Made by a program: the position numbers and the translations under genes
Notes under the pieces: model-generated
The model's input: only the letters and a program-made list of their open reading frames with translations
The model's database searches: none
What the model was told of the DNA's origin: nothing
Source: Thomasclavelia cocleata
GTDB lineage: Bacteria; Bacillota_I; Bacilli_A; Erysipelotrichales; Coprobacillaceae
Direction: 5' to 3'
Assembly: GCF_900102365.1 (NCBI RefSeq)
Contig: NZ_FOIN01000017.1
Coordinates: 7,736 to 54,219, forward strand
Length of the DNA: 46,484 nucleotides
In this document: piece after piece, positions 24,841 through 43,459 of the stretch
Position numbering within the stretch: position 1 is the stretch's first letter
Layout of the letters: each line of letters opens with the position of its first letter

Positions 24841-25683
24841 TTATTTTTCAATTTTCTCTAAATATCTACCTAAAGCATCTTGCCATGTAGGTAAACGTTT
24901 AAATCCATTTTTATCTAACATTTCTTTTGACATTCTACTATTGCTTGGTCTTTTAGCTTTAGCTGGAAAAGCATTTGAATCTACTGGAGTAACCTCAACA
25001 TCCATTTTTGCTTGTTTGAATATTTCACATGCAAATTCATACCATGAGCATAATCCCTCATTAGTTGCATGATAGGTTCCATATTTGTCAGTTAAAATCA
25101 TATCTACTGCTAATTTAGATAGATCATATGTATATGTTGGTGATCCAATTTGATCATTTACAACACTTACTGCCCCTCTTTCTTTTCCTAAACGAAGCAT
25201 AGTTTTAATAAAGTTATTACCATTAACACCAAATACCCAGGCAATTCTAACAATAAAATGCTTTTCTAAAGCTTCAACTGCTAATTCCCCTTCATATTTA
25301 GTTTGACCATACACATTTAATGGATTTCTTTTATCATATTCATTCCAAGGCTGATCTCCTTGTCCATCAAATACATAATCTGTAGAAAAATACATTATTG
25401 GGATATCTAATTCTTTGCAAACCTTAGCAATATTTTTAGTTCCATCTACATTTACTTTAGTACATGCTTCAACCTCATCCTCTGCTTTATCTACTGCTGT
25501 CCATGCAGCACAGTGAACTATAGCATCATAATTTCCAGATTTAATTATTTCTTCTACCTTTTTAGAATCTGTAATATCCATTTCTTCGACATCTACACCA
25601 ATTGCTTCAATATTTCTTTTTTTGCATTCATTTACAATATCATGCCCTAATTGACCTTTAACACCAGTTACTAATAATTTCAT
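24841..25683 (-). CDS. rfbD: dTDP-4-dehydrorhamnose reductase
   Basis: A 280-residue short-chain reductase: NAD(P) loop TGVKGQLG at 6-13, FSTDYVFDG at about 99-107 and the catalytic pair Y125-x-x-x-K129 (YGQTK). It makes the last step to dTDP-L-rhamnose in the cytosol. AGGAGG lies 9 bases before the ATG. It is the last gene of the exporter operon, 13 bases after the tandem GT2. The other three dTDP-rhamnose genes (rmlA, rmlB, rmlC) are not in the window. Confidence 0.95.
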   Translation of the reverse strand: MKLLVTGVKGQLGHDIVNECKKRNIEAIGVDVEEMDITDSKKVEEIIKSGNYDAIVHCAAWTAVDKAEDEVEACTKVNVDGTKNIAKVCKELDIPIMYFSTDYVFDGQGDQPWNEYDKRNPLNVYGQTKYEGELAVEALEKHFIVRIAWVFGVNGNNFIKTMLRLGKERGAVSVVNDQIGSPTYTYDLSKLAVDMILTDKYGTYHATNEGLCSWYEFACEIFKQAKMDVEVTPVDSNAFPAKAKRPSNSRMSKEMLDKNGFKRLPTWQDALGRYLEKIEK

Positions 25684-27859: not shown

Positions 27860-27875
27860 AATCAACCTGCCAAAT

Positions 27876-28649
27876 TTAAATTTCTTCTGCAAAACCTTTT
27901 TCAAGTTTTCTAAATATTTTCAAACCGATATAAAAACATATTCCAGCAATAACTAGTATATAAATAATACTAGCAAGTGATGGTAAAGTATGATACATAA
28001 ATAAATCACGATATGCATTTACAATTTGTGTAAATGGATTTAAATTTAAAACCCATCTTATTACACTTGGAAATACTTCTGCTGGATATAATATTGGTGT
28101 AGCATAAAATAACATATTAATAATAAATTGGATAATATATTCAGTATCCTGAACATATACATTAATCGCACTTAACCCTAATACTAGACCAGATGTAATT
28201 AAAAACTGAATTATTGCGATAAATGGCACTAAAATTATATGCCAGCTTACTCCCAAGCCTCCAAAAACACAGAATAAAACAATAATAATACATGCAATAA
28301 AAAAATTAACTAAACCACTTAAAGAAGCAGATATTGGTAAAATTTCTCTGGGAAAATATACTTTATTAACTATACCTGCATTATTTTTAATACTTCCCAT
28401 TCCTAGTCCCATTACTGTTGTAAAGAAATTCCAAGGGATTACTCCACAAATTAGATATTGTAAATAGTTTTCAGTTTTAATTCTCATAATATATGGAAAA
28501 ACAATTGCATATACAACAACCATTAATAAAGGATTTAAAAAAGACCAAAGTATACCTAAAAAAGATCCTTTATATTTCCCTCTAATATCTTTTTTTACAT
28601 TGGTTTTCAGTAATTCACGATATTCATATAAATCTTTTATTAGTTTCAT
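27876..28649 (-). CDS. ABC-2 polysaccharide exporter permease (Wzm/TagG/RgpC-like)
   Basis: A 257-residue protein with six membrane helices. The N-terminal amphipathic region with KDIRGKYKGSFLGILWSFLNPL is the signature of O-antigen, teichoic acid and rhamnan exporters. It pairs with the ATPase encoded immediately upstream (10-base gap), with AGAGGT before its ATG. It should move a lipid-linked glycan across the membrane. Confidence 0.93.
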   Translation of the reverse strand: MKLIKDLYEYRELLKTNVKKDIRGKYKGSFLGILWSFLNPLLMVVVYAIVFPYIMRIKTENYLQYLICGVIPWNFFTTVMGLGMGSIKNNAGIVNKVYFPREILPISASLSGLVNFFIACIIIVLFCVFGGLGVSWHIILVPFIAIIQFLITSGLVLGLSAINVYVQDTEYIIQFIINMLFYATPILYPAEVFPSVIRWVLNLNPFTQIVNAYRDLFMYHTLPSLASIIYILVIAGICFYIGLKIFRKLEKGFAEEI

Positions 28650-28659: not shown

Positions 28660-29790
28660 CTATATAATATTTACTTTTAAATCCTTTTGAGAAATTATAT
28701 TACCTTTATTATCTATTAACTGTGCTATTATTAAATGTTCTCCCATTTCATGACCATTCATATCTACAACATAAGTAAAACCACATTCATCATCGTTTGT
28801 TCCATAACCACCATATTTTTCCTGATATGCCATTAATACATCTTCACGTTTTACTAAATGATGTAATGTCAATTCTTCATCATCAAAAAATACTTTCAGC
28901 TTTCGATCAATACAATCACTTAGATACCATCCTGAAACTGCAAAACTATTTCTCTTAAAATTAATTTCTTCAAATGATTTAGGAACATCTATAACAATAA
29001 TTCCATGATAATTATCATCTTCTTTTTGTTTCTTTTTTGCTTCCTCTTTATGATCTATTTTAACTTGTTTTAAATATTCATCAATTACATATACTGGATC
29101 ACCATCTAACCTAAATTCACCTTTATAAATCCATACTGCTCGATTACACAAATCTTTTACTGTATCTAAACTATGTGAAACAATCACAATTGTTTTATCA
29201 CTATCTCGTAATTCTTTTAATTTATCAAAACATTTGTCTTGAAAATGTTGATCACCAACCGCTAAAATTTCATCAATTAATAATATCTCAGCATCTACAT
29301 TTATCGCAATCGAAAAAGCTAATCTCATATACATCCCAGATGAATATGTACGTATTGGATTATCAATAAATTCTCCTAATTCAGAAAATGCAATAATATC
29401 ATCAACGCGTTTTTCTATTTCTTTTCTAGTTAATCCAAATACTGCTGCATTAAAATATATATTCTCTCTTCCAGTAAAATCTGGGTGAAACCCTGCTCCT
29501 AATTCTAATAAGGAAGTTAACTTACCATTTGTTTCAATTGTTCCATCATTTGGATAAATAATCTTTGTCATCAATTTTAAAAGTGTTGATTTACCACTAC
29601 CATTTGTTCCAATTAAACAAACACTTTCACCTTTTCTTATATCTAAATTAATATTTTTTAAAACAGTATGTACTTCTTTTTTATTTTTTCTAGAAGATAC
29701 TAGTCTTTCTTTTAAAGTATGTGCCTTATCATATTCCATTTTGAAGTATTTGGTCATATTTCTAACTTCGATCGCATTATTTATATCCAT
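28660..29790 (-). CDS. ABC exporter ATPase with C-terminal beta domain (Wzt/TagH/RgpD-like)
   Basis: A 376-residue protein. ATPase domain about 1-245: Walker A GTNGSGKST (61-69), signature YSSGMYMRLAFS, Walker B ILLIDEILAVGD, H-loop IVSHS. After a charged linker (KEEAKKKQKEDD) comes a 120-residue beta-rich domain, in the place where Wzt has its glycan-recognition domain. Such domains can select which finished chain is exported; that is inferred here. GGAGGA precedes the ATG and a strong promoter lies 27 bases upstream, so this gene opens the operon that ends in rfbD. Confidence 0.93.
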   Translation of the reverse strand: MDINNAIEVRNMTKYFKMEYDKAHTLKERLVSSRKNKKEVHTVLKNINLDIRKGESVCLIGTNGSGKSTLLKLMTKIIYPNDGTIETNGKLTSLLELGAGFHPDFTGRENIYFNAAVFGLTRKEIEKRVDDIIAFSELGEFIDNPIRTYSSGMYMRLAFSIAINVDAEILLIDEILAVGDQHFQDKCFDKLKELRDSDKTIVIVSHSLDTVKDLCNRAVWIYKGEFRLDGDPVYVIDEYLKQVKIDHKEEAKKKQKEDDNYHGIIVIDVPKSFEEINFKRNSFAVSGWYLSDCIDRKLKVFFDDEELTLHHLVKREDVLMAYQEKYGGYGTNDDECGFTYVVDMNGHEMGEHLIIAQLIDNKGNIISQKDLKVNII

Positions 29791-29816: not shown

Positions 29817-29844
29817 ATTATATCATATAAATGCTTAATTTCAA
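29817..29844 (-). promoter_or_regulatory. Promoter of the ABC exporter / rfbD operon
   Basis: TTGAAA, 16 bases, TATAAT (5/6 and 6/6) on the minus strand; predicted leader of about 20 bases carrying GGAGGA. Confidence 0.65.
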
Positions 29845-29902
29845 ATTTATTATATTTTAACACATAATTTTTATTGTGCATACATAGATACATTAGTAAT
29901 TA

Positions 29903-31600
29903 TCAGGTTGAAAATAATCTTCTTCTAATCTTCTTTAATCTAGACCAATTATACTCAAATATTAACTTTTCTTCATTCATGTCAACCTTAGAAAAGCAAC
30001 GAATACAATTTGAATTAATTGGAATTTCAATAATTGTCTGATTTGTTTTAAAATTATAATTACAAAACGCTTGCAAAACTTCAGCTTTATCATTTTTGAT
30101 AATAAACATATCAGGTTGAATTTTATCACTTATTATAATAACTAATTTAGGTTTGAAAAAACCTTTAACATATTTTTCTGCATGTACTAAATCATTTACT
30201 TTTAAATAATTTGCAGAATAATAACTATTTCTAATTTCATCATTATAATCACTAATATTAAAAGATAATTCTAAATAATTAAGATTTTTAATTTCTACCC
30301 ATGGATCATCATTCATTGATATTAGCGATTTGCTTACTGTTAATAACCCACTTGTTGTTAGCTTATCTATTGAATTACTTTCACCATTAATAATTAAATT
30401 ATCAATTTTATACCCTGCTCGATTAACTAAATCAATTCTAAAGTTTAGTGATCTTGAAAATTTTTTACTGTTAAATTTTACAGTTTTATCTATTATTTCA
30501 ACTTTAATAGATTCTTTTTCACTATAATTTCCATCTTTTGCATAATATATTTGTAAAAACAATTTACCTTTATTAATTAAATTTTGTCTAATTCCATTTT
30601 CTCTTACAAATAATGGTGATTTTCTAAATAGAAGATTATAATTTTGATATAATTTTTCATAATCCATTGGTTGTTTATGCATATTTTCAAAAGCTTTATT
30701 TATAATAGTTTCAAACAAAAAATGTTCTTTAGCAAATTTTTGACATTCTTCAATATCTTTTAAACATTCCCCATATCCTTGAATAATATTTTCTACTAAT
30801 TCAATATCACTATATTTACATCTTGAATATCTACCAGAAAAGTTAAACTTAAATGAATTATTAATATTTTTTTTAGTAATATAACCATCTCCTCCAAAAT
30901 GATCATAAACATAACATGGTATTCCTAAAGCTATTCCTAAATTTATTGTTTTTCCAATAGAAATTATTACATCATATTGTAACAATAAATCTGCACTTAC
31001 CAATTTATAAATATGCTTTTTACCATAAATATCTACACTTATTCCCTTTTTTTCAAAAATAGCTTTTATTCTTTCAACTTCATTAGGAACATGATTAGAA
31101 ACAACACAAATGCTTTCTATTTTATTTTTTGCATTATGTAATACCTTTAATTCTTTCTCCATAATATAATTTGGAAATATATTAAAATATTTATTATCAT
31201 ATCCTTCAATTCTATTTTGTTCTTTAGCTTCATAACTCAATGTAGATACTAAACTTAGAGATTGATAATAATCTGGATATGCTTCATAATTTGCATAAGA
31301 TGACAGACTTAAATAATGAATATATGTAGCTTTTATTTTTTTATCAAACAAAAGAAAGTCTAAAAATGGATAATGATGCGCCCAAATATAATCATATCTA
31401 TCATTTAATTCCTCATTTTCAAGATAATCTATTACTCTTACTCGATGATCAACACTTTTTAATAAAGGATAACCTTTATCTAAGGTAAAGATATCTACAC
31501 AATATCCATTTTCTACGAAATAATTTGCAATACTTACAGTATCAACTTCTGAACCTGTATAATTTTTAATATATGCATTGGTCATTAAAATTTTCTTCAT
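29903..31600 (-). CDS. GT4-like glycosyltransferase with C-terminal beta domain
   Basis: A 565-residue protein. Residues about 1-330 look like a GT-B transferase: N-terminal MTNAYIKNYTGSEVDTVSIANYF (acceptor domain start), a middle CVVSNHVPNEVERIKAIFEKKG and GIALGIPCYVYDHFGGDGY in the donor domain. Residues about 345-555 are beta-rich with no catalytic motif, perhaps a binding module. The classic GT4 E-x7-E is not obvious, so the class is a judgement. AGGTAAAATTT precedes the ATG, 5 bases after murA, so they are co-transcribed. Confidence 0.6.
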   Translation of the reverse strand: MKKILMTNAYIKNYTGSEVDTVSIANYFVENGYCVDIFTLDKGYPLLKSVDHRVRVIDYLENEELNDRYDYIWAHHYPFLDFLLFDKKIKATYIHYLSLSSYANYEAYPDYYQSLSLVSTLSYEAKEQNRIEGYDNKYFNIFPNYIMEKELKVLHNAKNKIESICVVSNHVPNEVERIKAIFEKKGISVDIYGKKHIYKLVSADLLLQYDVIISIGKTINLGIALGIPCYVYDHFGGDGYITKKNINNSFKFNFSGRYSRCKYSDIELVENIIQGYGECLKDIEECQKFAKEHFLFETIINKAFENMHKQPMDYEKLYQNYNLLFRKSPLFVRENGIRQNLINKGKLFLQIYYAKDGNYSEKESIKVEIIDKTVKFNSKKFSRSLNFRIDLVNRAGYKIDNLIINGESNSIDKLTTSGLLTVSKSLISMNDDPWVEIKNLNYLELSFNISDYNDEIRNSYYSANYLKVNDLVHAEKYVKGFFKPKLVIIISDKIQPDMFIIKNDKAEVLQAFCNYNFKTNQTIIEIPINSNCIRCFSKVDMNEEKLIFEYNWSRLKKIRRRLFST

Positions 31601-31605
31601 AAATT

Positions 31606-32871
31606 TTACCTGATTTTCCTTTCAATAACCGCTCCTAAAGAAATTAATTTTTTATCAATATTTGCATAACCTCTATCAATATGATAAACATTATTAATTT
31701 CTGTACTCCCATTTGCAAGTAATGCTGCTATTATTAACGCAGCTCCACAACGCAAATCAGTTGCATAAACAACTGTACCATATAATTGAGTAGGTCCAAT
31801 AATATTACATTCCCCCTCTTTTTTCTCTATTTTAGCCCCCATACAATTCAATTGCTCACAATGTCCAAATCTTTCTGGATATATTCTTTCTACTACTTTT
31901 GATGTCCCATGACATTGAGTTAATAATACAGTTAGAGGCTGTTGTAAATCAGTTGCAAAACCAGGATATATTTCTGTCATCACATTTACTGGCTTTAAAT
32001 TATTTTTTCTTCCATAAACTATAATACTATCTTCCATGATATCCATTTGTATCCCTATTTCTATCAGCTTTGATATTAATGCTTCTAGATGGTGAGAAAT
32101 AATATTTTTTATCTCTATTTTTCTTCCAACTGTTGCAGCTATTATTAAAAATGTACCAGCTTCAATACGATCAGGGATCATTTCATGATAACACCCATGT
32201 AAAGTTTCTACACCATCTATTACAATTTTATCTGTTCCAGCACCTTGTATTTTAGCACCCATTTTTGTAAGTAAATTAACAATATCAATTATTTCAGGCT
32301 CTTTAGCTGCATTTTCTATTATTGTTCGACCCTGAGCTTTAACTGCAGCCAATAAAATATTAATTGTCGCCCCAACAGAAGCAAAATCAAGGTAGATTGT
32401 ATTTCCTACTAGTTGCTTTGCAGTAATTATATAAACATCATCTTTATACTCTATCTCTGCTCCTAAAGCTTCAAAACCTTTTAAATGTAAATCAATTGGT
32501 CTTGGTCCTAAATAACAGCCACCAGATGATCTTATTATTGCTTTTTTAAATTTTCCCAATAATGCACCCATTAAATAATAAGATGCTCTTAACTTGTCTA
32601 CAGAATCCTTAACCAATTTAGTATTTTTTAAATTTGTTGGATCTATTTGTAAAATATTATTTTCTTTTTTTATATCACAGTTTAGCTCTTTTAATAAATT
32701 ACTTAAATAATCAATATCACTTATCTCTGGTATTCCACTAATAGTTACTTTACTATCTGCAAGTATTGCCGCAGGAATCAATGCTACTGCTGCATTTTTT
32801 GCACCAGAAATAACTACTGTCCCATTTAATTCATGACCACCTTCAATAATTATTTTTTCCATCATGTTCAT
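31606..32871 (-). CDS. murA: UDP-N-acetylglucosamine 1-carboxyvinyltransferase
   Basis: A 421-residue enolpyruvyl transferase, first committed step of peptidoglycan synthesis. ISGAKNAAVALIPAAILAD carries the Lys-Asn pair, and SSGGCYLGPRPIDLHLKGF carries the PEP- and fosfomycin-reactive Cys (C119 from the chosen start). DRIEAGTFLI and YPGFATDLQQPL are further MurA marks. Start 32871: AAAGGGA lies 5-6 bases upstream; the frame also opens at 32886. Placement within a polysaccharide operon is unusual and suggests a second, non-housekeeping copy, though I cannot see the rest of the genome. Confidence 0.93.
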   Translation of the reverse strand: MNMMEKIIIEGGHELNGTVVISGAKNAAVALIPAAILADSKVTISGIPEISDIDYLSNLLKELNCDIKKENNILQIDPTNLKNTKLVKDSVDKLRASYYLMGALLGKFKKAIIRSSGGCYLGPRPIDLHLKGFEALGAEIEYKDDVYIITAKQLVGNTIYLDFASVGATINILLAAVKAQGRTIIENAAKEPEIIDIVNLLTKMGAKIQGAGTDKIVIDGVETLHGCYHEMIPDRIEAGTFLIIAATVGRKIEIKNIISHHLEALISKLIEIGIQMDIMEDSIIVYGRKNNLKPVNVMTEIYPGFATDLQQPLTVLLTQCHGTSKVVERIYPERFGHCEQLNCMGAKIEKKEGECNIIGPTQLYGTVVYATDLRCGAALIIAALLANGSTEINNVYHIDRGYANIDKKLISLGAVIERKIR

Positions 32872-32905
32872 CTCTGTCCCTTTCATCTCTTTTTAAACAT
32901 AGATA

Positions 32906-32923
32906 GCCCTGATAAAACAGGGC
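32906..32923. repeat. Small hairpin upstream of murA
   Basis: GCCCTG / CAGGGC with a 6-base loop, 35 bases before the murA start. It is the only GC-rich stem in the region and has no T-run on the minus strand, so it is not a good terminator there. Confidence 0.4.
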
Positions 32924-32970
32924 ATTTATTTACTATTAAAATTACATTTTTAAAATAACTAATTCTTAAA

Positions 32971-33123
32971 TCAAATTTTTTGTTTCCCTTCAAACATTAA
33001 TACCTTTGAATATAAACCAAAATAAGCTATCTGTGTAAAAACATTAATAATAACTATCAAAATTAAACATATTATCCAACAAAAAACATAATTCAAACAA
33101 AATTTATCAACTTTTATTTTCAT
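32971..33123 (-). CDS. Possible 50-residue membrane protein
   Basis: ATG at 33123 to TGA at 32971. A basic N-terminus (MKIKVDKF) is followed by one strong membrane helix (about residues 12-31) and a short polar tail ending KQKI. It lies in the gap between the 638-residue membrane protein (15 bases away) and murA, in the same direction. No clear ribosome site is visible, and I know no family. It could be chance in AT-rich DNA. Confidence 0.35.
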   Translation of the reverse strand: MKIKVDKFCLNYVFCWIICLILIVIINVFTQIAYFGLYSKVLMFEGKQKI

Positions 33124-33138
33124 ATTTTATCTTCATTA

Positions 33139-35055
33139 CTATTTTTTATAATAAATATTGTACCTAACACCTGCATTAATATCATCAATTTTATCAAATG
33201 ATTCAAATCCCATACTTTCAAGATAAAGATTATCTTCAGATGTTGGTAGTACAATACAATTTATTGGATATCTTAATAGCATTTTTTCTAATTCATCTGC
33301 AGTATCTGTATTTGGATTAACTAAAAAATTATCAAATATTCTCTGTTCATCTGCATTATAATCCGCAAACGCCCCTGTTTCACATGTCCCAAATCTTCCA
33401 ATTGCAGAAATAGAGCGAATTTGGGGAGCAAATGTTCTAATAATTATTGCTACTGAGTGCATATCACCATCAGCCATAACCCCCTCTGGCATTATTACAT
33501 TAATCGCTTTGTTTCTTTGATTAGCCAATGTTGTCAATTTACTACCTAGCTTAATTGTCGACGAAGGTATAATCGCTTTGTTTTGCCATACTGTTTTATA
33601 TGATGATAAAATACTCCCTTCATAAATATGGGCTGATCCCAATGCTCCAATAATTAATAAAATAGTAGATAATGAATACATCAATACTAATTTATTTTTC
33701 ATAAATTCTAATTTATTTAATAATATATATATATATATGCTTACCATTATAATCATTGTATAAATTAATGTTGTTAAATTCCTTGCTGCAACAAAATCAT
33801 AAACAGATAATTTTTCAAATATATTATTAATAGGATCGAAAATTATTAATATACCAATTATTAATATAGTTAAGTTACATTTAGTAACTACTTTTGATTT
33901 AAAACTAAAACTAACTAATAAAATTATAACAGCTAATACTAAAAACCAATTATCTATATTATATGAAATCTGGGTTAAAATAACTGAACTGATTTTTTCT
34001 GTATTACCTAAAATAGTCCCAATTACTATTAATATAAATGTTATCATAATTGCAATGAATCGGTATTTTTTTTCTGAAATAATATATGTACTAAGTAAAT
34101 AAGCGACTCCTGATGTAAAAATTACTGGTAAAGCAATAATAGATTTAGATGTTAATGCAATAGAAATTAGCAATACTATTAAAACATCTTTTAACCCTAT
34201 TTTTTCTTTATCAATAAAATGTATTATTATCAACATTATCCCCATAGTCCTTACAATGGATGAGCCATAATACATTGCAGTATTAAACTGCCAAGAATCT
34301 TGTACCATAATAATACCACTTTGATTTAAAAAATCCCAATTAAAAATAAACAAAATAACAATACAACTTATGTATTGAATTGTACTTTTATTATAATTAA
34401 TATTGCATGATTTAATAATTTTTTCCGCAAATACAAATATACAATTAACTAATAAAAAATAATTAAAACCTGACATGAATATTCTTGCAAATATTGAAGG
34501 AGTTACTTGGGTTAAAAACATATATACTGAATTTTCAAGTTCACCAGTAGTAAACACATCAAGTCTAAATATATTACTAGACCCTAATAAACCTGTGGCC
34601 GGAGCTATGATAAAAGGATTATCTATATATGGTAAAGTTGCCATTTTATTCAAATATTGCCCATCATCTAAACAATTATTTAACCAAATCCAATCCTGAT
34701 AAGAGAGCGAAATTACAATCAGTATTAAAGATATTACAAATAAAAACCAATAATTTTTCAAAAATTTTTTTAAACTTAGAGGAAATAATTTAATATTTTC
34801 TTTCTTAATCTTATAAAATGAAAATATTAATAATATTATAACTACTAAAATAAAATATCCAAAAAATACATTCCAGGAGGTATTTAACTGCTGTATTATA
34901 ATTCCCCCTACACCAATTAAAACACTATAGATTAAGTATCCTGTAAGAAAACGATAAGGTTCTGAATCATTTTTTAATATTGAACTACCTACAAAATACA
35001 GAAACAATATAAATACAATATAAAATATCATTCCTATAACATAATCATATATCAT
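33139..35055 (-). CDS. Large polytopic membrane protein, possibly GT-C-like (DUF6077-type)
   Basis: 638 residues: about 13-15 membrane helices up to about residue 480, then a 150-residue soluble domain, probably extracellular (ANQRNKAINVIMPEGVMADGD... to PINCIVLPTSEDNLYLESMGF). The first large loop (about 125-175) begins with the acidic LDDGQY, where GT-C enzymes carry their catalytic acid. This architecture resembles lipid-phosphosugar-dependent GT-C transferases or DUF6077 proteins rather than a Wzy polymerase, but I cannot assign function. No ribosome site precedes the ATG; instead an 11-codon ORF ends 6 bases before it. Confidence 0.6.
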   Translation of the reverse strand: MIYDYVIGMIFYIVFILFLYFVGSSILKNDSEPYRFLTGYLIYSVLIGVGGIIIQQLNTSWNVFFGYFILVVIILLIFSFYKIKKENIKLFPLSLKKFLKNYWFLFVISLILIVISLSYQDWIWLNNCLDDGQYLNKMATLPYIDNPFIIAPATGLLGSSNIFRLDVFTTGELENSVYMFLTQVTPSIFARIFMSGFNYFLLVNCIFVFAEKIIKSCNINYNKSTIQYISCIVILFIFNWDFLNQSGIIMVQDSWQFNTAMYYGSSIVRTMGIMLIIIHFIDKEKIGLKDVLIVLLISIALTSKSIIALPVIFTSGVAYLLSTYIISEKKYRFIAIMITFILIVIGTILGNTEKISSVILTQISYNIDNWFLVLAVIILLVSFSFKSKVVTKCNLTILIIGILIIFDPINNIFEKLSVYDFVAARNLTTLIYTMIIMVSIYIYILLNKLEFMKNKLVLMYSLSTILLIIGALGSAHIYEGSILSSYKTVWQNKAIIPSSTIKLGSKLTTLANQRNKAINVIMPEGVMADGDMHSVAIIIRTFAPQIRSISAIGRFGTCETGAFADYNADEQRIFDNFLVNPNTDTADELEKMLLRYPINCIVLPTSEDNLYLESMGFESFDKIDDINAGVRYNIYYKK

Positions 35056-35061
35056 AATTAT

Positions 35062-35097
35062 TTAATAAACATTAACTTGTTTATTTTCTCCTTTCAT
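35062..35097 (-). other. Eleven-codon leader ORF before the 638-residue membrane protein
   Basis: MKGENKQVNVY then TAA. AGAGGA lies 9 bases before its ATG, while the following gene, 6 bases after the TAA, has no ribosome site. Translational coupling is likely. Confidence 0.4.
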
Positions 35098-35137
35098 CAA
35101 ATATTTTCCTCTACTATTCTATAAAAAACGCACTGTT

Positions 35138-35166
35138 ATTATACATCAAACACACGGTATAAACAA
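35138..35166 (-). promoter_or_regulatory. Promoter candidate of the 35.1-29.9 kb unit
   Basis: TTGTTT, 17 bases, TATAAT on the minus strand (3/6 and 6/6). It gives a leader of about 75 bases that contains the leader ORF. Confidence 0.45.
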
Positions 35167-35312
35167 CCTTGCATAATAGTTATACAGTAATATAAAAATG
35201 TTTAATATTTTAATCCAATTTCCATAAGCACTTTATAAAGAAAATTTCTCATATCCTTTTAAAACATTACTATAATATTTCATCATTATTACTTACAACT
35301 TCTACAATTTCT

Positions 35313-35465
35313 TTACCAGTGCTCTTTCAGCATTAATATAAAATCATCAATACTATTCTTAACAATTTCATAAACAGCATCATCTCATCTATTAGTTATA
35401 GTAAATATGACATTTTGATTAACTTCAATTACAGTTATTCAAAATCCTTCATCTTTTAAAATCAT
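35313..35465 (-). pseudogene. Decayed coding fragment, family not recognised
   Basis: One minus frame reads MILKDEGF-stop-ITVIEVNQNVIFTITNR and, after a second stop, DDAVYEIVKNSIDDFILMLK and EHW-stop: coherent protein-like text broken by two TGA codons. No other gene in the window uses TGA as a sense codon. It looks like the end of a lost gene. The rest of 35056-35558 holds the promoter and leader ORF and nothing else I can name. Confidence 0.4.
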
Positions 35466-35558
35466 TATAAGTAAGAATTATTTTATCTGTAATAAATCTT
35501 TTCATTTAGATCATGATATATTCTTCTAGTTTTAACATAATAAATTTTTCTCTATTAC

Positions 35559-36692
35559 TCAATAACTAATATAATTTTCAACATAATTAATATATCTATC
35601 TTTAAAAGTATCAGGTGAAAAATTATAATAATTATTCTCAGCATTAATTGATATTTCTTTCAGTAATTTCTGTTCTGTAGTTAATAAAATAACTTTTTCA
35701 ATAAATTCATCATCATTATCAACAATATATCCATCAACATCATTATTTACAACTTCATTTGTCGAATCTCCCCAACTAAAAGTAACAATTGGTACTCCAC
35801 AACGTTTAGCCTCTAATACCGTTAATGGTAATCCTTCATTAATTGATGCTGATAAAAGTGCTGTATATTGATTGTATATTTCTTTATTGGTTGTAAAACC
35901 TTTTAAAAAAACTATTTTCTCTAGATTATGAGTATTAATATATTCTTCTAATTCTTTTTTCAATTCACCTGAACCATATATATCTAAATGTAGTGAATAA
36001 CCTCTTTCTTTTATTTTTTCAAATATTTTAATTAATCGTAAAGGATTTTTATTTCTATCTAATCTTCCCATAAATAAAAAATTATTTTTTCTTTGGTCAA
36101 AATTATATTCTGGCCTAATTACATTTCCAGCAAAGTTATAAATATAATCTGCATTATAACCTTTATTCAAGGCTTTTTTTGCATCTGCCTTACTCCTAAA
36201 AAGAATTAAGCCAGGTTTTGTCATTAACTTAATTTGTAATTTAGATCCAAAATTCCCCTCCCAAAAATATTCATATTTAGTATGAATTTCTAGAATAAAT
36301 TTATTTTTTTTACTCATAAATATTCCAGCAGCAGGTGATGTGACAACAATTCTTTTTTCATCTCTAAACATTTTTGCCATTTTATAACGACAAATTGGAA
36401 TATATAAAAAGAAAATAATAACACTAACAATTGCTTTAAATACCTTTTTTATTTGCTTATTTTTTAAATATTGAATAACTTTAAAAAAACGATTATCAAT
36501 ATTAAATTTATTAGTAATTATTATATTATAATCTTTAAATAATTTTAAATTATCTTCATCACAATTATAAATACTAACAATATTTATATCATAATCATAT
36601 TTTAATTTCTCACAAATATTTAAATACATTCCAATTAGTCCCCCACTTTGTGCAGAAGGAATTTGATCAAAAACAAAATATATTTTTTTCAT
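35559..36692 (-). CDS. GT4 family glycosyltransferase
   Basis: A 377-residue GT-B enzyme: N-terminal FVFDQIPSAQSGGLIGMYLNI, and a C-terminal donor domain with FLFMGRLDRNKNPLRLIKIF, IYGSGELKKEL, FLKGFTTNKEIY and the GT4 SINEGLPLTVLEAKRCGVPIV segment with its two Glu. Start 36692 (ATG) overlaps the flippase stop as TGATG; a GTG three bases earlier is also in frame. Last gene of the long operon that begins at 43378; no terminator seen after it. Confidence 0.9.
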   Translation of the reverse strand: MKKIYFVFDQIPSAQSGGLIGMYLNICEKLKYDYDINIVSIYNCDEDNLKLFKDYNIIITNKFNIDNRFFKVIQYLKNKQIKKVFKAIVSVIIFFLYIPICRYKMAKMFRDEKRIVVTSPAAGIFMSKKNKFILEIHTKYEYFWEGNFGSKLQIKLMTKPGLILFRSKADAKKALNKGYNADYIYNFAGNVIRPEYNFDQRKNNFLFMGRLDRNKNPLRLIKIFEKIKERGYSLHLDIYGSGELKKELEEYINTHNLEKIVFLKGFTTNKEIYNQYTALLSASINEGLPLTVLEAKRCGVPIVTFSWGDSTNEVVNNDVDGYIVDNDDEFIEKVILLTTEQKLLKEISINAENNYYNFSPDTFKDRYINYVENYISY

Positions 36693-38110
36693 CACTTTAC
36701 TCCCTTTTTCGTGAAAATCATCAAAAGCTCATCCTTAGTTATAATTAATAAAAACATATAAATAATAATTGCTACAAAAATTTGTAATACTGTAGTATAT
36801 ATATGGGTCCCTAAATTAATAAAAATAAAGTAACACGGTATTACAGAAATTAATGAAAATAATAGATATTTAAATACTCTTTTATATAAACCATTTAATT
36901 TAATATCTTTAGTCATATAATAGTATTGAATAATTGTTACACTGAATTCCGCAAAAATTGTTCCTAATACTGCACCATAAACACCCCAAATTGGAATCGT
37001 TAAATAATTTACAATTACATTCAAAATTGCAGAAAAAATACTAGAAATAGTAAGATATCTCGTATTTTTAGTTGGCACTAAATATTGTGTACTAGATATA
37101 CTTGATAGTCCTCTAGCAATGATAACAGGACATAATGAAATAATAATTGGTGCCACTTCATCATATCCAGGACCATAAAACCATGGCACAAAACTATAAG
37201 CAATACTAATTAATCCTAATGTCATTGGAAAAACTAATAAAAGTGTATATTTTATTGTAATACGAATACTTTCATTTAATTGATTTCTATCATTACTAGC
37301 AAATAGATTTGCACTTCTAGGCAACATTACAGCAGAAACTGCGGTAATTGCTGTAACTGGAATTTTTACAATTTTATCTGCTTGATCATAGAATGCAATA
37401 ATAGTAGAATCATGAGTAAAATATTCAAGCATAATCTTATCCATTTGATAATATACTAGGATAATAATTTGAGGTAATGCTATTTTTGATGTGGCTAAAA
37501 GATGAGGAATAATTTTTATTCTTTTCCAATTAGGTTTACAAATCAATTTGATCATACTTGGATAACAAATCAATACCCCTAACACTTGGCAGAACCCCAT
37601 AATCAAGATGTATTTAGTAATATCTTGTTGTGATTTTACTAATAAAAAGATTAATAAAACATTGAATGTTTTAATTATACAAGTTCTTAAAACAACTGTT
37701 TTAAAATCCTCTAAACCATTATAAAACCAAATCACATCTAAAAAACTACCAATAAACCAAATTAATTGATACATTGAATATTTCTCATATCGTGTACCTA
37801 CAAAAAAAGCATAATAAAGCACGAATGTAATTATCAAGAGGATAATCTTTAAAATCATAATCTCAAAAAATATTTGAGATCGTTTTTCTTTATTATTTTT
37901 AACATAGGCTATTTCACGGATACCATAATTAGTTAATCCTAAAGCACCAATTACTGCAAATATTTGAGCAACAGAATCAATATAACTATAAATTCCTAAA
38001 TTAGTTGGCAATAAAACCCTTGAAATATATGGAGAGGTTATTAAAGGTACAATTATTGCTAATAATTGTGATGCACAATTATAAAAAATATTACTAATTG
38101 TTTTTTTCAT
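36692..38110 (-). CDS. Wzx-type polysaccharide flippase
   Basis: A 472-residue protein with about 12-14 membrane helices and the MOP-superfamily N-terminus (FYNCASQLLAIIVPLITSPYISRVLLPTNLGIYSYID), plus QMDKIMLEYF and YDQADKIVKIP in the middle, both typical of oligosaccharide flippases. It would turn undecaprenyl-linked repeat units outward. AGAGGGATAAATAGG lies before the ATG; the upstream glycosyltransferase stops one base earlier. No Wzy-like polymerase is recognisable next to it. Confidence 0.92.
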   Translation of the reverse strand: MKKTISNIFYNCASQLLAIIVPLITSPYISRVLLPTNLGIYSYIDSVAQIFAVIGALGLTNYGIREIAYVKNNKEKRSQIFFEIMILKIILLIITFVLYYAFFVGTRYEKYSMYQLIWFIGSFLDVIWFYNGLEDFKTVVLRTCIIKTFNVLLIFLLVKSQQDITKYILIMGFCQVLGVLICYPSMIKLICKPNWKRIKIIPHLLATSKIALPQIIILVYYQMDKIMLEYFTHDSTIIAFYDQADKIVKIPVTAITAVSAVMLPRSANLFASNDRNQLNESIRITIKYTLLLVFPMTLGLISIAYSFVPWFYGPGYDEVAPIIISLCPVIIARGLSSISSTQYLVPTKNTRYLTISSIFSAILNVIVNYLTIPIWGVYGAVLGTIFAEFSVTIIQYYYMTKDIKLNGLYKRVFKYLLFSLISVIPCYFIFINLGTHIYTTVLQIFVAIIIYMFLLIITKDELLMIFTKKGVK

Positions 38111-38111
38111 C

Positions 38112-39104
38112 CTATTTATCCCTCTTTGCTAATGCAACTGCTTTGATAAAATCTTTTAAAATAGGTTTATCAACATTACGATTGCTCACTTGTTCCTTTT
38201 TTATTGCTCCTTTAATTACAATTATTACATTAGTTATAATTCCTTGTTGTCCAAAATGTTCTCTTTTTTTCCAAAAATCTAATTTTTTATCTAAAATTTT
38301 TTGATAACAAGCATCTAATTTTTGTTCTTTAATAAATTTATCCAAATAAATTAATTGAGGTAATCGTAATTCTGCATACTGATTTTCTATATTATTCTCT
38401 TTATTTTTAGAAAATAACTTTTTTATTTTATCAAATCCATATTTTTTTCCAATTCCAATTGTATTTTTATCATGCTGACGATAATAAATTAATGGCTCAT
38501 TTATATTTTTTAAACCTCCATACAATGCTGCAACAATTCCAAACCAGTAATCATGAGCCCATCCATTATCTAAATCTCCTATATAATTCAATATTTCTTT
38601 CTTAATTGCTGTAGTTGCTCCAGTAACAAAATTATCATTCAACAAATAATTAACTGTTTCATATTGATTATTCAAATAACTATTTTGATAACTCAAATTT
38701 TCAAAAAGATTACCTTTAATCTCTAAATTTTCATTTGTAATATGTGCATTTGAAAATACTAATAATGCATTTGGATTATCATTAAATACTTGACACATTA
38801 ATTCAACTTTATTTTCTTTCCAAATATCATCTTGATCACAAAAGAAAATAATATCACCTGAACATAGTGTTATTGCCTGATAAAAATTCTTAGCAAATCC
38901 TAAATTTTTTTTATTTATTTTTAACTTATACTCAATATTACTTGTTTTCAAAATTTTATTACAAATTTCTAATGTACTGTCTTTAGATCCATCATCACAA
39001 ATAATGATTTCATCCACTTTTTTTGTTTGATGTAAAATACTATTTAATTGTTCTACAATATACTTTTCTCCATTATAGGTACACATTGCAACTGATATTT
39101 TCAC
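38112..39104 (-). CDS. GT2 family glycosyltransferase (rhamnosyltransferase-like)
   Basis: A 330-residue enzyme with a GTG start (AGAGGTG 5 bases upstream). AMCTYNGEKYIVEQLNSILHQT, CDDGSKDST and FCDQDDIW (about 91) mark the GT2 fold; AHDYWFGIVAAL near 180 and YRQHDKNTIG near 210 are features of the same rhamnosyltransferase-like subgroup as the gene at 22735. Donor inferred only. The start is 2 bases after the DUF2304 gene stop. Confidence 0.86.
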   Translation of the reverse strand: MKISVAMCTYNGEKYIVEQLNSILHQTKKVDEIIICDDGSKDSTLEICNKILKTSNIEYKLKINKKNLGFAKNFYQAITLCSGDIIFFCDQDDIWKENKVELMCQVFNDNPNALLVFSNAHITNENLEIKGNLFENLSYQNSYLNNQYETVNYLLNDNFVTGATTAIKKEILNYIGDLDNGWAHDYWFGIVAALYGGLKNINEPLIYYRQHDKNTIGIGKKYGFDKIKKLFSKNKENNIENQYAELRLPQLIYLDKFIKEQKLDACYQKILDKKLDFWKKREHFGQQGIITNVIIVIKGAIKKEQVSNRNVDKPILKDFIKAVALAKRDK

Positions 39105-39106
39105 AT

Positions 39107-39463
39107 TTACACCTCTTTATCATGTAATTCTTTTTCTAATATAGCTATATGTTGTATTAAATTTTTTTGCTTTTCTTCTAATGATGACACTCTAACAAAT
39201 AATGTATAAACTACTATAATTAATAAAAAGATTATAAATGCGAACACCATATTGGCAGTTGAAATAACTCCTATAAAATCTGCAGCAAAATAGGCAATCT
39301 GAGGAAAAACAGCAACAATAATTAAAGCAATAGATGATAATAACCATACAAGAGCATAGTCAGAACGTAATTTACCCTTTTTTACACTTTTTATCAGTAT
39401 TAAAAATAGAAAAACTGATAAAATAATTAAAATTAATTGTAACGTCAATGTCATATTTTTCAC
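39107..39463 (-). CDS. DUF2304 small membrane protein
   Basis: A 118-residue protein: three membrane helices with LRSDYALVWLLSSI between the first two, and a short cytoplasmic coiled coil. DUF2304 genes nearly always follow a DPM1-like GT2, as here (7-base gap), and are thought to partner it. A GTG (39463) and an ATG (39454) both fit; GGTGA lies 5 bases before the ATG. Confidence 0.85.
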   Translation of the reverse strand: MKNMTLTLQLILIILSVFLFLILIKSVKKGKLRSDYALVWLLSSIALIIVAVFPQIAYFAADFIGVISTANMVFAFIIFLLIIVVYTLFVRVSSLEEKQKNLIQHIAILEKELHDKEV

Positions 39464-39470
39464 CTATCCT

Positions 39471-40142
39471 TTAATTAAAAAATATAATCGTAATAAGTAC
39501 TCTCAACATATATTGTATCGAACTACCAATTCCAGCATAAATACTTGTTCCTGCAACACGATCTTCCATTTTTACCTGAATTTCTTTTACCCTAAACCCC
39601 TTTTTCATCTGATATGCTAAAGTATCTGGTTCAGGTTTCCGATTTAATTCATAAGCATAATCTTTAATTAGTTTACGATTAATAATTCTCATCCCACTTG
39701 TTGGATCATTTATTTTCTGACCTGTTGTTAATTTAATCATAGCTGTAATTAAACGACTTCCTAACATACGAGCAGATAAATGTTTTTTTTCTTCAACGAA
39801 TCTTGAACCAATTACAATATCATACCCATTTTCAATTTCTTTTACTAGTGCTGGTATATATTCTGGTAAATGTTGTCCATCTCCATCAAATTGAATTGCA
39901 GCATCATAATTATTTTCATATGCATATTTGTATCCAGTTTGTACTGCACCAGTCAATCCTAAATTTACTGGCAAATCAATATGATTTATTTTATTTTCAT
40001 CAAGAATTTTAGGTGTACTGTCTTTTGAACAATCATTGATTACCACATAATCACTCCCTATATCAGCTTCTTGCAACTGTCTAACAACCCTTAAAATATT
40101 CTCTTCCTCGTTATATGCAGGAATTATTACTAAAACTTTCAT
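39471..40142 (-). CDS. DPM1-like GT2, polyprenyl-phosphate sugar synthase
   Basis: A 223-residue enzyme: MKVLVIIPAYNEEENI, NDCSKDSTPKIL, NLGLTGAVQTGYKYA, FDGDGQHLPEYIPAL (DxD) and GSRFVEE then DPTSGMR match dolichol/undecaprenyl-phosphate mannose or glucose synthases. It lacks C-terminal membrane helices of its own; the DUF2304 protein encoded next may supply them. The product would be an undecaprenyl-P-sugar used outside the membrane by a GT-C enzyme, for which the 638-residue protein is a candidate (inference). Start 40142, AAAGGAG upstream. Confidence 0.9.
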   Translation of the reverse strand: MKVLVIIPAYNEEENILRVVRQLQEADIGSDYVVINDCSKDSTPKILDENKINHIDLPVNLGLTGAVQTGYKYAYENNYDAAIQFDGDGQHLPEYIPALVKEIENGYDIVIGSRFVEEKKHLSARMLGSRLITAMIKLTTGQKINDPTSGMRIINRKLIKDYAYELNRKPEPDTLAYQMKKGFRVKEIQVKMEDRVAGTSIYAGIGSSIQYMLRVLITIIFFN

Positions 40143-40167
40143 TTTTTCTCCTTTAACCATTATTATT

Positions 40168-41091
40168 TTAACTATTTATTGTTACCATAAAAAAACGATA
40201 TATTTTATTCAAATAACTTTTAGATGTAAATGTTAATAAAAATCCATCTTTTATAAATTTCAAATATTTTTTTTCTTCTATATCTTTCAATACAATATTA
40301 AATCTTTCATTTGCTTTTAAATATCTTTTTGCCCTACTATAATTATTATAATTATTTACATATTCTTTTGCCTTATCAATATCAGCAATTTCTTTTTCTG
40401 AATACTTTTTAGTTATAAATCTTGCAAAAAGATACTGCTCATATAAATTACTTCTAGAAATACTAGAGGATGTCATTCGATACTTTAATATCGTTTCATT
40501 AATATTAGATATTTTATATCCATTTAAAACTGCCCTTAGTGTAAAATCATAGTCTTCACATAACGGCATATTTCGATAACCATTTAATTTATCAAAGACT
40601 TCTTTTTTCCCAAACCAGGTTGGATGTGAAATAATTTGATTATATCTTAGTGCTTTCTTTATTTTATTTATATCAGTAGGTACTTTTTTTATTGAATAGA
40701 TGCTTTTTCCATTTTCATCTATCATTTGTGATATTCCACCAATTAGATCATATTTATTTTCTTCTAAATACTTCTTTTGGTTTTCTATGCGATTACTAAT
40801 TGAAATATCATCAGCATCCATTCTACAAATATATATACCTTTAGCCAATCCTAGCCCTTTATTTAAAGATGCTGTAAGTCCTATGTTTTTTTTATTTATA
40901 TAAAACTTAATTCGTTTATCTATATTTGTATATTCTTCAATAATTTTAATATGTAAATCATTATCAGGATTATCTAAAATGATTATATATTCAAAATCTT
41001 TATATGTTTGATCTAATATAGATTCTATTGCCTGTCTTAAAAATATTTCCTCTTCTTTATAAGTAGACATAATAACTGATACTAAACACAT
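40168..41091 (-). CDS. GT2 family glycosyltransferase
   Basis: A 307-residue enzyme: VSVIMSTYKEEEIFLRQAI, ESILDQTYKDFE, IGLTASLNKGL, CRMDADDIS (DxD near 92), SHPTWFGKK and CEDYDFTLRAV. This layout is common in capsule GT2 proteins that add galactose or N-acetylated sugars; donor not deducible. AAGGAG precedes the ATG. It lies 17 bases after the GT14 gene. Confidence 0.88.
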   Translation of the reverse strand: MCLVSVIMSTYKEEEIFLRQAIESILDQTYKDFEYIIILDNPDNDLHIKIIEEYTNIDKRIKFYINKKNIGLTASLNKGLGLAKGIYICRMDADDISISNRIENQKKYLEENKYDLIGGISQMIDENGKSIYSIKKVPTDINKIKKALRYNQIISHPTWFGKKEVFDKLNGYRNMPLCEDYDFTLRAVLNGYKISNINETILKYRMTSSSISRSNLYEQYLFARFITKKYSEKEIADIDKAKEYVNNYNNYSRAKRYLKANERFNIVLKDIEEKKYLKFIKDGFLLTFTSKSYLNKIYRFFMVTINS

Positions 41092-41108
41092 TTTATTCTC
41101 CTTGATCT

Positions 41109-41987
41109 TTACTTATTTTTTAAACTATCATACAATATTTTAATTATTTTATCATCAATATTTTCATCAAACTTTCTTGCCATTAAATATTTTGAATTAG
41201 CCAATTCATCATAATCATTTATAGTAAAAGTTTTAGGATGTTTATTTTGTCCTGTCCAATCAATAAAGACAGGAATCTCAGCTTGTGTCTTATAATATGG
41301 TGATGATACAAAGATACTTTGGAATAAGGATTCATCTGGACAAATAGCATTATCAAAATATTTCATAATATTTGGATTAGTTTTAATTTTATCATATATA
41401 TAATGTATACACTCATTAGTTAATAACCACCACGAACTTCCAAAATTAAAATCTAATCTTGTTACATTTTTCCTTTTAAAAATTAATGTTTTATATGGAC
41501 CCCCAGTAACTAAAATATATAAATGTTTTAAAATTGTTATTAATAAATTTGAGCTTGTCATAAAAGGTGCATATTTTAATTCATTTCTTTTTAAAAATCT
41601 TTTATACAACTGATTATTTTTAGACATTATTTCTATATAATTTCTTTCCTTATTTTTTTCTAAGAAATCTTTTATATAACTAATTGACTTTATTGGAAAG
41701 TCTTGTCCACTTAAAAACCAAAAATAATCATATTTAATGTTATTATTAAGAGCACACTCAATTAAATTTACTGTAGCATGAATCATCTGACTCTGCCCCC
41801 ATTTAATATCTAATCTTTTTCTTTTATCTAAAAAATAAATATTATCTTTTTTCTTGATTTCATTAATTATATTACTTTTTTTATCAATATGAAGATAAAA
41901 ATCGACATCTTTATCATCTAGTGTATCTATTAAATAATTTATTTGTACAGGATTTTTATGACATAATATTAAAAATGCTATTTTCAT
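41109..41987 (-). CDS. GT14-like glycosyltransferase (core-2/I-branching family)
   Basis: A 292-residue protein: AFLILCHKNPVQINYLIDTL, VDFYLHIDKKS, FWFLSGQDFPIKS, FGSSWWLLTNECI and CPDESLFQSIF are the conserved blocks of bacterial GT14 enzymes (beta-1,6-GlcNAc or beta-xylosyl type). A metal-independent transferase that often makes branches. Acceptor and donor are unknown. It is second in the operon, after the initiating transferase. Confidence 0.88.
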   Translation of the reverse strand: MKIAFLILCHKNPVQINYLIDTLDDKDVDFYLHIDKKSNIINEIKKKDNIYFLDKRKRLDIKWGQSQMIHATVNLIECALNNNIKYDYFWFLSGQDFPIKSISYIKDFLEKNKERNYIEIMSKNNQLYKRFLKRNELKYAPFMTSSNLLITILKHLYILVTGGPYKTLIFKRKNVTRLDFNFGSSWWLLTNECIHYIYDKIKTNPNIMKYFDNAICPDESLFQSIFVSSPYYKTQAEIPVFIDWTGQNKHPKTFTINDYDELANSKYLMARKFDENIDDKIIKILYDSLKNK

Positions 41988-42013
41988 AAGATCAATTCCT
42001 TCTCCTCTATTTC

Positions 42014-43378
42014 TTATAATGATCCTTTTCCATAAACCACGCTTTTTACTGTTTTATACATAATTGTAAAATCTAACCAGATTGACCAATTATGATAATA
42101 ATAATCATCTAGTTTACAACGATAACTAAATTCAACATCACTTCTACCATTAGCTTGCCACATTCCTGTAACTCCTGGCTTTAACTTAATAATTGAATCA
42201 TAATATTGTCCCATATCGCTCTTTTCTCTAGGAAGGTATGGTCTAGGACCAATAAAACTCATTTCTCCTTTTAATACATTAATAAATTGTGGCCATTCAT
42301 CTAAAGAAGTTTTTCTTAGAAAATGACCAACTGGAGTAATTCTAGGATCATCTTTTAACTTTTTATTAGTCAAATACTCCACTTTTATTTCAGGATTTTC
42401 TTTCATTAATCTTTCCAATTCTTTTTCAGCATCAGGTATCATTGATCTAAATTTATAAATCTTAATCAATTTACCATTTTTACCTATTCGATGCTGCGAA
42501 AACATGATATTATCATGATCCCCGCTTTTTACATATTTATATTTTACATATGCCATTAATGGTAATAATGTTATTACCCCCACAATTCCTGCTAGAATAT
42601 CAACAAATCTCTTAAAGAACTTATCCAATATACTAATTGTATCATTTGATGTAGCTATTAATAATTGTCCATCAAAATCCTGTACTTCTGATGAAAAAGT
42701 CATTGTTCCATTAACATTTGGAAGATATTTTACTGATTCAACCTTTCCATAAATGTCGCTCATAATTTTATCAATCACTTGTTGATTAGCTTCAGGTAAA
42801 GCTATAATTATTTGTTCAATAGCATTATTTATAATAGCTTCATTTAAATTATCATAATTATATACTTTACTATGTTTAATTATATTTTCCTGTTTAAATC
42901 CAAATAAATCTTTAGTATTATTTACATCTACATATCCTCTTACAGTAGTTAATGCAAATCTATTATTATTAGATATTTTTCCAAGACGGGCAGCTTCATA
43001 ACCTGTACCTATTACTAAAGTTTTTCTGGCAAAAACTTCTCTAAATGCAATTCTTAAAAACCTTGATGCAAGTAAGCTTATAACAAACATTGCCACAACC
43101 ATAATTGTTAGATGAATCCTGCGATCATACCCATAACTTTTAGGTACTAAAACTAATAAGGCTATAAAAAAACAAAAACTTGTTTTTACCAATTGTTTAA
43201 TCTCGTTCCAAATTAGACATGTCTTTAATGAGTAATGACCATAAATAAACATAAATAAAAAATATAAGGTTCCTGAACCAACAATAAGCTGCATATCCAT
43301 ATGAAAATATAAACAAATAAAATAATACATTACTACTTCAATTGAAAAAAGCATAATGGGCATTAATTTTCTATTCAC
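42014..43378 (-). CDS. Initiating polyprenyl-phosphate sugar phosphotransferase (WbaP/CpsE family)
   Basis: A 454-residue protein with a GTG start (GAGGTG 6 bases upstream). Four N-terminal membrane helices (to about 105), a soluble nucleotide-binding-like middle region, a fifth helix (about 245-265), then the catalytic domain: FKRFVDILAGI, QHRIGKNGKLIKIYKFRSM, LRKTSLDEWPQFINVLKGEM and SFIGPRPYLPRE, ending in LKPGVTGMWQ. It attaches sugar-1-phosphate (usually Glc or Gal) to undecaprenyl phosphate, the first step of repeat-unit synthesis. It opens the long operon and has a good promoter. Confidence 0.95.
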   Translation of the reverse strand: MNRKLMPIMLFSIEVVMYYFICLYFHMDMQLIVGSGTLYFLFMFIYGHYSLKTCLIWNEIKQLVKTSFCFFIALLVLVPKSYGYDRRIHLTIMVVAMFVISLLASRFLRIAFREVFARKTLVIGTGYEAARLGKISNNNRFALTTVRGYVDVNNTKDLFGFKQENIIKHSKVYNYDNLNEAIINNAIEQIIIALPEANQQVIDKIMSDIYGKVESVKYLPNVNGTMTFSSEVQDFDGQLLIATSNDTISILDKFFKRFVDILAGIVGVITLLPLMAYVKYKYVKSGDHDNIMFSQHRIGKNGKLIKIYKFRSMIPDAEKELERLMKENPEIKVEYLTNKKLKDDPRITPVGHFLRKTSLDEWPQFINVLKGEMSFIGPRPYLPREKSDMGQYYDSIIKLKPGVTGMWQANGRSDVEFSYRCKLDDYYYHNWSIWLDFTIMYKTVKSVVYGKGSL

Positions 43379-43430
43379 TGTTTCACCTCTTATCTTTTGT
43401 TAATAATATTTTTATAAAGTTTTCGCATTT

Positions 43431-43459
43431 ATAATAGCATATATAGCGATATTTGTCAT
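43431..43459 (-). promoter_or_regulatory. Promoter of the main polysaccharide operon
   Basis: ATGACA, 17 bases, TATTAT (5/6 each) on the minus strand; leader of about 45 bases to the GTG. Divergent to the PAP2 promoter 35 bases away. Confidence 0.6.

Follow-up and report, generated by a model that had tools for sequence, protein, structure and literature searches.

The DNA considered here is a 46,484-nucleotide stretch of the Thomasclavelia cocleata genome (assembly GCF_900102365.1, contig NZ_FOIN01000017.1, positions 7,736 to 54,219), referred to throughout as the window. On its minus strand it carries a glycan gene cluster that probably specifies a side-chain glycosylation system of the Wzx type, of which the Gac and Wps systems are examples, with a 638-residue polytopic membrane protein related to the DUF6077 family (33139..35055) as the transferase, predicted to have the GT-C glycosyltransferase fold. 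The initial annotation had grouped this protein with a DPM1-like family 2 glycosyltransferase (GT2; 39471..40160) and a small DUF2304 membrane protein (39107..39463) as a candidate extracytoplasmic glycosylation system, and that interpretation is supported, the activity, donor and acceptor being putative. All three open reading frames (ORFs) are present on the minus strand, the GT2 matching PF00535 (E 1.3e-26) and the small protein PF10066 (E 1e-27). The evidence comprises the gene content, the GT-C fold prediction, the co-occurrence of the genes, a clade of GT2 proteins associated with the GT-C and the presence of a different GT-C at the same place in a close relative. Systems of this kind are already known; what is new is the DUF6077-related GT-C in the attachment role and the swap of the segment that carries it.

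Predicted fold and family of the 638-residue protein

Hydropathy analysis gives the 638-residue protein approximately 13 hydrophobic segments, and searches with its sequence returned no Pfam match (PMT_2 included), no NCBIfam or PHROG match and no PDB sequence at an E value of 1. An AlphaFold2 model, calculated with a ten-row alignment (A3) as input, reached a pLDDT of 78.8 and a pTM of 0.83. When this model was structurally re-aligned with the top 1000 PDB chains from Foldseek, keeping one row per entry, it was found that the 33 best-ranked entries were all GT-C enzymes or complexes containing one (Z 8.6–15.7), and that the next row fell to Z 5.2. The highest score was for STT3 (Z 15.7, rmsd 6.8 over 421 residues), with yeast and human oligosaccharyltransferase (OST) spanning Z 10.9–15.7; AftA (Z 13.2, rmsd 5.7 over 465), PglB (Z 11.2, rmsd 6.0 over 410) and ArnT (Z 11.1, rmsd 6.5 over 413) were also in this set, alongside AglB, ALG12, Pmt4, Pmt1–Pmt2, EmbB, DPY19, AftD and AftB (lowest Z 8.6). 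For three translocon complexes in the set the entry title names no chain, and the chain was taken to be STT3. WaaL scored Z 4.3, and comparison with a library of viral structures yielded no match at E 0.001 or better. Most of the structural alignments begin near residue 90–100, so the first three helices would appear to be an addition ahead of the GT-C core. A second model, of a relative at locus L033 that exceeds the DUF6077 cut-off and is 22% identical to the window protein, reached a pLDDT of 72.5 and a pTM of 0.73; here 31 GT-C entries rank first (Z 8.2–16.7), followed by two entries for the C-terminal domain of AglB on its own (Z 6.8 and 5.3). Both models thus point to the GT-C fold that had been suggested initially.

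Some considerations temper this assignment. The two models were built from the same ten sequences, and Foldseek alone found no PDB match with an E value of 0.001 or lower. The six matches that it ranked highest were GT-C enzymes or complexes containing one (E 2.5e-3 to 0.07, TM-scores no higher than 0.37), and the assignment therefore depends on the structural re-alignment. With this tool, helical models that lack any clear relative can reach a best Z of about 13–14, for which reason weight is placed on the uniformity of the list and on the gap in Z beneath it, and on no single Z score.

Homologues of the 638-residue protein were found by whole-genome search in 11 of 43 family genomes (the window's own included). 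They align over nearly the full length at about 29–36% identity, others being more distant, and this conservation rules out a chance ORF. In an alignment of the window protein with 13 homologues from ten other family genomes (A1, 14 rows), G23, G51, W103, Y134, G155, E172, R191, W255, G264 and R425 are invariant, whilst D130 is found in 13 of the 14 rows and D131 in 12; in the ten-row alignment A3 the invariant positions include D130, D131, Y134, R191 and R425. The two aspartates lie in a loop (residues 119–185) with seven D/E against two K/R, and in the predicted model the residues from about 495 onwards form a C-terminal alpha/beta domain; these features match the acidic loop and soluble C-terminal domain described in the initial annotation. 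D130–D131 would form the catalytic motif and would be located outside the cell.

The window protein has no match to DUF6077 (PF19554) even at E 1. Six of the ten A3 members do match this family (best E 1e-16), five of them above the Pfam cut-off, and one homologue above the cut-off (L028) is 34% identical to the window protein. On these comparisons the protein is a divergent relative, DUF6077-related and not a recognised member. The earlier description of this type of membrane protein as uncharacterised holds: DUF6077, whose function is not known, is named in no paper of the library searched (open-licence PMC papers, preprints excluded). Two paralogous GT-C genes each were observed in G026, G011 and G032 (L015/L016, L019 and L020/L026). 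The homologue at L002/L028 is longer at its C-terminus by roughly 180 residues, a tail with the look of two repeats, which is possibly wall-binding.

The GT2/DUF2304 pair and its linkage to the GT-C

The genes for DUF2304 and the DPM1-like GT2 lie 7 bp apart. Dolichol-phosphate-mannose synthase is the best PDB sequence match of the GT2 (E 1.2e-16), as its DPM1-like designation implied, and a DGD motif is found at residue 92 of the 229-residue ORF; the protein is a candidate polyprenyl-phosphate-sugar synthase, its substrate lipid in the proposed pathway being undecaprenyl phosphate (C55-P). The best NCBIfam match is PpgS, the mycobacterial polyprenyl-phospho-GalNAc synthase (NF058614), yet the score of 78.9 bits is far below the equivalog cut-off of 370. 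In mycobacteria, PpgS is accompanied by a small membrane protein as partner and by Rv3779, a GT-C. An internal ATG at 40142, the end given in the initial annotation, would give a GT2 of 223 residues, and this is probably the true start, since the length then equals that of the 94% identical relative at locus L025.

The DUF2304 protein has three hydrophobic segments and is a GacJ/WpsB-like candidate partner of the GT2. In the passages of the literature that concern them, DUF2304 is described as typical of GacJ-like proteins, and GacJ and WpsB are described as activators of their GT2 partners. The initial annotation had offered membrane docking or flipping as the role of DUF2304. Docking is retained, together with activation of the GT2, whereas flipping is set aside because of the GacJ/WpsB precedent and because a Wzx protein, the more likely flippase, is encoded close by; DUF2304 therefore more likely activates and docks the GT2 than flips its product.

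Co-occurrence of the three genes, which the initial annotation had named as a check alongside the fold, holds across genomes; neither of the two outcomes that were to refute the idea, an unrelated fold or a lack of co-occurrence, was observed. DUF2304 is found in 20 of the 43 family genomes and in 10 of the 11 that have the GT-C (two-sided Fisher test, 0.001). In a sample from the phylum, DUF6077 (E 1e-10 or better) was found in 9 of 295 genomes, DUF2304 (E 1e-6 or better) in 22, and both in 8 (one-sided Fisher test, 2e-9), p-values which overstate the association as the genomes are not independent. In six of the nine, the two are on the same contig within 5 kb, with 37 to 4827 bp between the matches. 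The DUF6077 model misses the window protein, and the phylum counts hence concern its relatives. At the level of loci, all three genes are present in 7 of 12 drawn from 10 family genomes, the others being L016 (the second GT-C of G026), both G032 contigs (4.8 and 13 kb), G016 and G019, and in 7 of 8 mapped from a second genome collection, the miss being L031; from this collection L028, a copy of the G026 locus, was left out, and the genomes of L030, L031 and L032 are already present in the first set. In total, 13 different loci hold the trio, the window included, and in eight of them (L015, L017, L023, L027, L029, L033, L034 and L035) the three genes are contiguous. A recurring regulator with the N-terminal sequence ANVxxRTIRYYDxIGLLKPS, presumably MerR-like, was observed near the GT-C and sugar-nucleotide genes in L016, L027, L029 and L033.

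A tree of 25 GT2 proteins divides into two clades, each with 100/100 support. In the first clade, 12 of 13 rows have a DUF6077-related GT-C in their locus (those of L023 and L025 match DUF6077 itself), against 1 of 12 in the second. The GT-C label requires 3 changes on this tree compared with 8.6 in shuffles, none of 500 being as low, although near-copies among the rows favour clustering. L046 and L047 were scored negative by locus, but their genomes (G016 and G032) hold a GT-C on another contig. Seven large membrane proteins from second-clade loci, hand-picked one each from L036, L038, L040, L041, L043, L044 and L045 (leaving out the other proteins of these loci, and L039, L042, L046 and L047), gave four matches to DUF2142, one to DUF6020, one to PMT_2 and one without a match. 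A profile of the GT-C family gave no match to any large membrane protein (more than 380 residues, at least six segments) of the 12 DUF2304 loci L036–L047, a search that had no positive control.

Exchange of the segment carrying the GT-C

The window and the corresponding locus of a congener (G042, L025) are 85–89% identical at the DNA level over 21461–29850 and 35544–44071, and the intervening segment of about 5.7 kb (29851..35543), in which the GT-C is encoded together with an additional MurA and a 565-residue protein, is unmatched. In the same place, positions 8553–10967 of L025 contain one sizeable ORF, which encodes a DUF6077 GT-C that is 28% identical to that of the window over the first 370 or so residues, with no significant alignment beyond. 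The GT2/DUF2304/Wzx core is 93–96% identical between the two. The conserved flanks around a replaced segment indicate that the transferase has been exchanged while the core stayed, and the different GT-C at the same place suggests that this enzyme sets a variable side-chain linkage. In G041 (L023) the DNA match likewise ends, at 29849, but the genes are ordered differently: a 523-residue protein follows Wzt, and the DUF6077 GT-C lies on the opposite side of the GT2/DUF2304 pair.

The second MurA (31606..32886, minus strand) exceeds the PRK12830 cut-off and is 71% identical to the copy on C60. An ordinary MurA occurs as one copy in all nine genus genomes examined, and the second copy in that of the window only. 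The 565-residue protein (29903..31600, minus strand) has no Pfam, NCBIfam or PHROG match, and its one relative among 42 other family genomes, in G014, is likewise beside Wzt. Next to the GT-C gene, 32887–33138 has no long ORF and contains a hydrophobic frame of about 50 codons, which may be a remnant.

Gene cluster, proposed pathway and comparison with known systems

The genes of the cluster lie on the minus strand. Between the DUF2304/GT2 pair and the GT-C gene are a GT2 (38112..39104, assigned by Pfam), a Wzx/MOP-type flippase (36692..38110; PF01943, E 3e-23; 93% identical in L025) and a family 4 glycosyltransferase (GT4) between the flippase and GT-C genes (35559..36695; 85% identical in L025), which may extend the lipid-linked sugar. 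Together with a 503-bp gap (35056–35558) these part the 638-residue protein from the pair, so there is no three-gene operon in the window, and a strict arrangement of this kind was ruled out. The gap has no long ORF and has stops in all three minus-strand frames. As to the three-part system envisaged initially, the genes do co-occur, and the system looks more like the Wzx (Gac/Wps) type than like the classical kind made of three genes. On the other side of the pair are a GT2 (40168..41091) with homologues (54–85% identity) in 8 of the 12 other trio loci, a Core-2/I-branching family glycosyltransferase (41109..41987; PF02485) and a bacterial sugar transferase (Bac_transf, 42014..43378; PF02397), a candidate phosphoglycosyl transferase for starting a glycan linked to undecaprenyl diphosphate (C55-PP). 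At lower coordinates than the GT-C gene are a Wzt/TagH-like ATPase (28660..29790) and a Wzm-like permease (27876..28649) of an ABC-type polysaccharide exporter, both assigned by best NCBIfam matches under the curated cut-offs, a 735-residue protein with two GT2 stretches that is a candidate backbone glycosyltransferase (25697..27904), and RmlD of dTDP-rhamnose synthesis (24841..25683; PF04321, E 1.6e-103). Hydropathy shows no large polytopic protein in the cluster other than the 638-residue one and Wzx, and family scans of the window proteins tested recognised neither a Wzy nor a DUF2142 protein. A promoter scan of the window was no better than chance (67 against 67.5 in shuffles).

Adjoining the cluster are two ChW-repeat proteins (44091–45263 and 45585–46397, minus strand), the former containing a YkuD L,D-transpeptidase domain. 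A sulfatase-family protein (17348–18826, minus strand; PF00884) is also encoded in the window, and by analogy it may be a GacH/LtaS-like enzyme that transfers phosphoglycerol to the same polymer.

The joint presence of the phosphoglycosyl transferase, RmlD, the Wzm/Wzt-like exporter, the glycosyltransferases and Wzx matches the cluster to two lipid pathways. In one, a backbone would be built on C55-PP and exported by Wzm/Wzt; this polymer probably contains rhamnose, given RmlD and the gene context. In the other, DUF2304 would dock and activate the DPM1-like GT2, which would load a sugar onto C55-P at the inner face of the membrane; neighbouring GT2 and GT4 enzymes may lengthen this to an oligosaccharide, Wzx would flip the product outward, and the GT-C, with its acidic D130–D131 loop outside, would transfer the sugar or oligosaccharide as a side chain to the exported polymer.

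Two pathways of this kind, a C55-PP backbone and a C55-P side chain attached by a GT-C, have been proposed for group A Streptococcus, according to the published sections on GacI/GacJ/GacK/GacL, the GlcNAc side-chain system of the group A carbohydrate. As described there, that system resembles the window in having a GT2 with a small membrane partner, a Wzx-type flippase, a GT-C and an ABC-exported rhamnose polymer, but its GacL has a PMT_2 domain, for which no match was found in the GT-C of the window, a relative of DUF6077; in addition, the window has more glycosyltransferases between the genes. In the corresponding sections on Lactococcus (WpsA/WpsB/WpsG/WpsJ), the pellicle is attached to rhamnan: a GT2 and WpsB start the C55-P glycan, glycosyltransferases extend GlcNAc-P-C55 before Wzx flips it, and a GT-C attaches it, a model like that for the window, where, however, no polymerase was recognised. 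Both likenesses are of description and not of sequence comparison. The published Streptococcus thermophilus rgp side-chain loci combine WpsA/WpsB homologues, a Wzx-like flippase and a polytopic membrane protein within a single locus; this last protein belongs to DUF2142, a family that in relatives of the window also lies close to the GT2 and DUF2304 genes. The GT-Cs of Wzx/Gac-type systems are described as having, in a loop outside the cell, a DxD motif or a modified form of it, for which D130–D131 is the candidate in the window protein. Of the features of such systems, the GT-A polyprenyl-phosphate-sugar synthase (PF00535), DUF2304 beside the GT2 and Wzx were found in the window by homology, and the GT-C by its predicted fold.

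Weighing the alternatives

Several observations speak against such a system. In the window itself, other genes and a gap separate the GT-C gene from the DUF2304/GT2 pair, as set out above. G019 has a GT-C homologue and no DUF2304; in G016, G032 and G201 DUF2304 is on another contig than the GT-C, and in G285 it is 339 kb from the DUF6077 gene. The L017 GT2 sits in the second clade despite a GT-C in its locus, and G040 (L037) has a first-clade GT2 and no GT-C match, the L037 row being 242 bases from a contig end in a genome that is 89% complete. Furthermore, in A1 the residue at D130 is Asn in the G019 protein, and that at D131 is Gly in both G011 proteins.

The 638-residue protein could instead fill the role of Wzy, polymerizing a Wzx-flipped repeat unit built on Bac_transf-primed C55-PP, with the GT2/DUF2304 pair serving elsewhere. 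The cluster does encode a phosphoglycosyl transferase, Wzx and several glycosyltransferases, the proteins tested include no recognisable Wzy, and the 638-residue protein is the sole large polytopic protein besides Wzx. This is nevertheless unlikely: OST, ArnT, PMT and Aft enzymes rank far above WaaL in the structural comparison (although this is not decisive), the conserved association with DUF2304, and in most cases with a single GT2 clade, suits a C55-P-sugar donor, and a polymerase would be needless for a chain exported by Wzm/Wzt. Slightly less probable still is an oligosaccharyltransferase-like enzyme moving a C55-PP-oligosaccharide, made by Bac_transf and the glycosyltransferases, to a protein or glycan, the GT2/DUF2304 product being a mere accessory donor. 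STT3, AglB and PglB are the closest structural matches, and some of these enzymes use diphosphate-linked oligosaccharides, but the donor does not follow from a common fold, and the strongest genomic signal is the linkage to the C55-P synthase pair.

That the GT-C gene is a recent import mismatched to its neighbours, the trio not cooperating in this genome, seems very improbable. It would fit the location of the gene within the 5.7-kb segment that differs from G042 (where the GT-C is 28% identical over about 370 residues) and the 503-bp gap, with its stops, that precedes it; set against this, the ORF is intact, its conserved residues are kept, and G042 also has a DUF6077 protein at the same place. 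Side-chain attachment by the GT-C in a Wzx-type system thus remains the favoured interpretation.

Implications for DUF6077 and the cell surface

A broader proposal is made more tentatively, and we consider it somewhat less than an even prospect: DUF6077 proteins may be GT-C side-chain ligases, similar to STT3/AglB in architecture, that transfer a Wzx-flipped C55-P oligosaccharide as one block to a wall polymer exported by an ABC system, with their gene in an exchange slot (occupied by DUF6077 proteins and elsewhere by DUF2142 or DUF6020) whose replacement changes the surface serotype while the GT2/DUF2304/Wzx core stays. Among the papers listed on the host group, 10 of 12, none has a title that concerns its wall glycans.

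The analysis offers a testable function for a membrane protein family that lacks one, and it would widen the range of the Gac/Wps machinery for side chains from the lactic acid bacteria, where it has been described, to include relatives of the Erysipelotrichaceae. In lactococci, surface variation of this kind bears on phage sensitivity, according to the published passages on the subject. For T. cocleata and its relatives, a GT-C that varies between otherwise near-identical loci would let the bacteria vary their surface.

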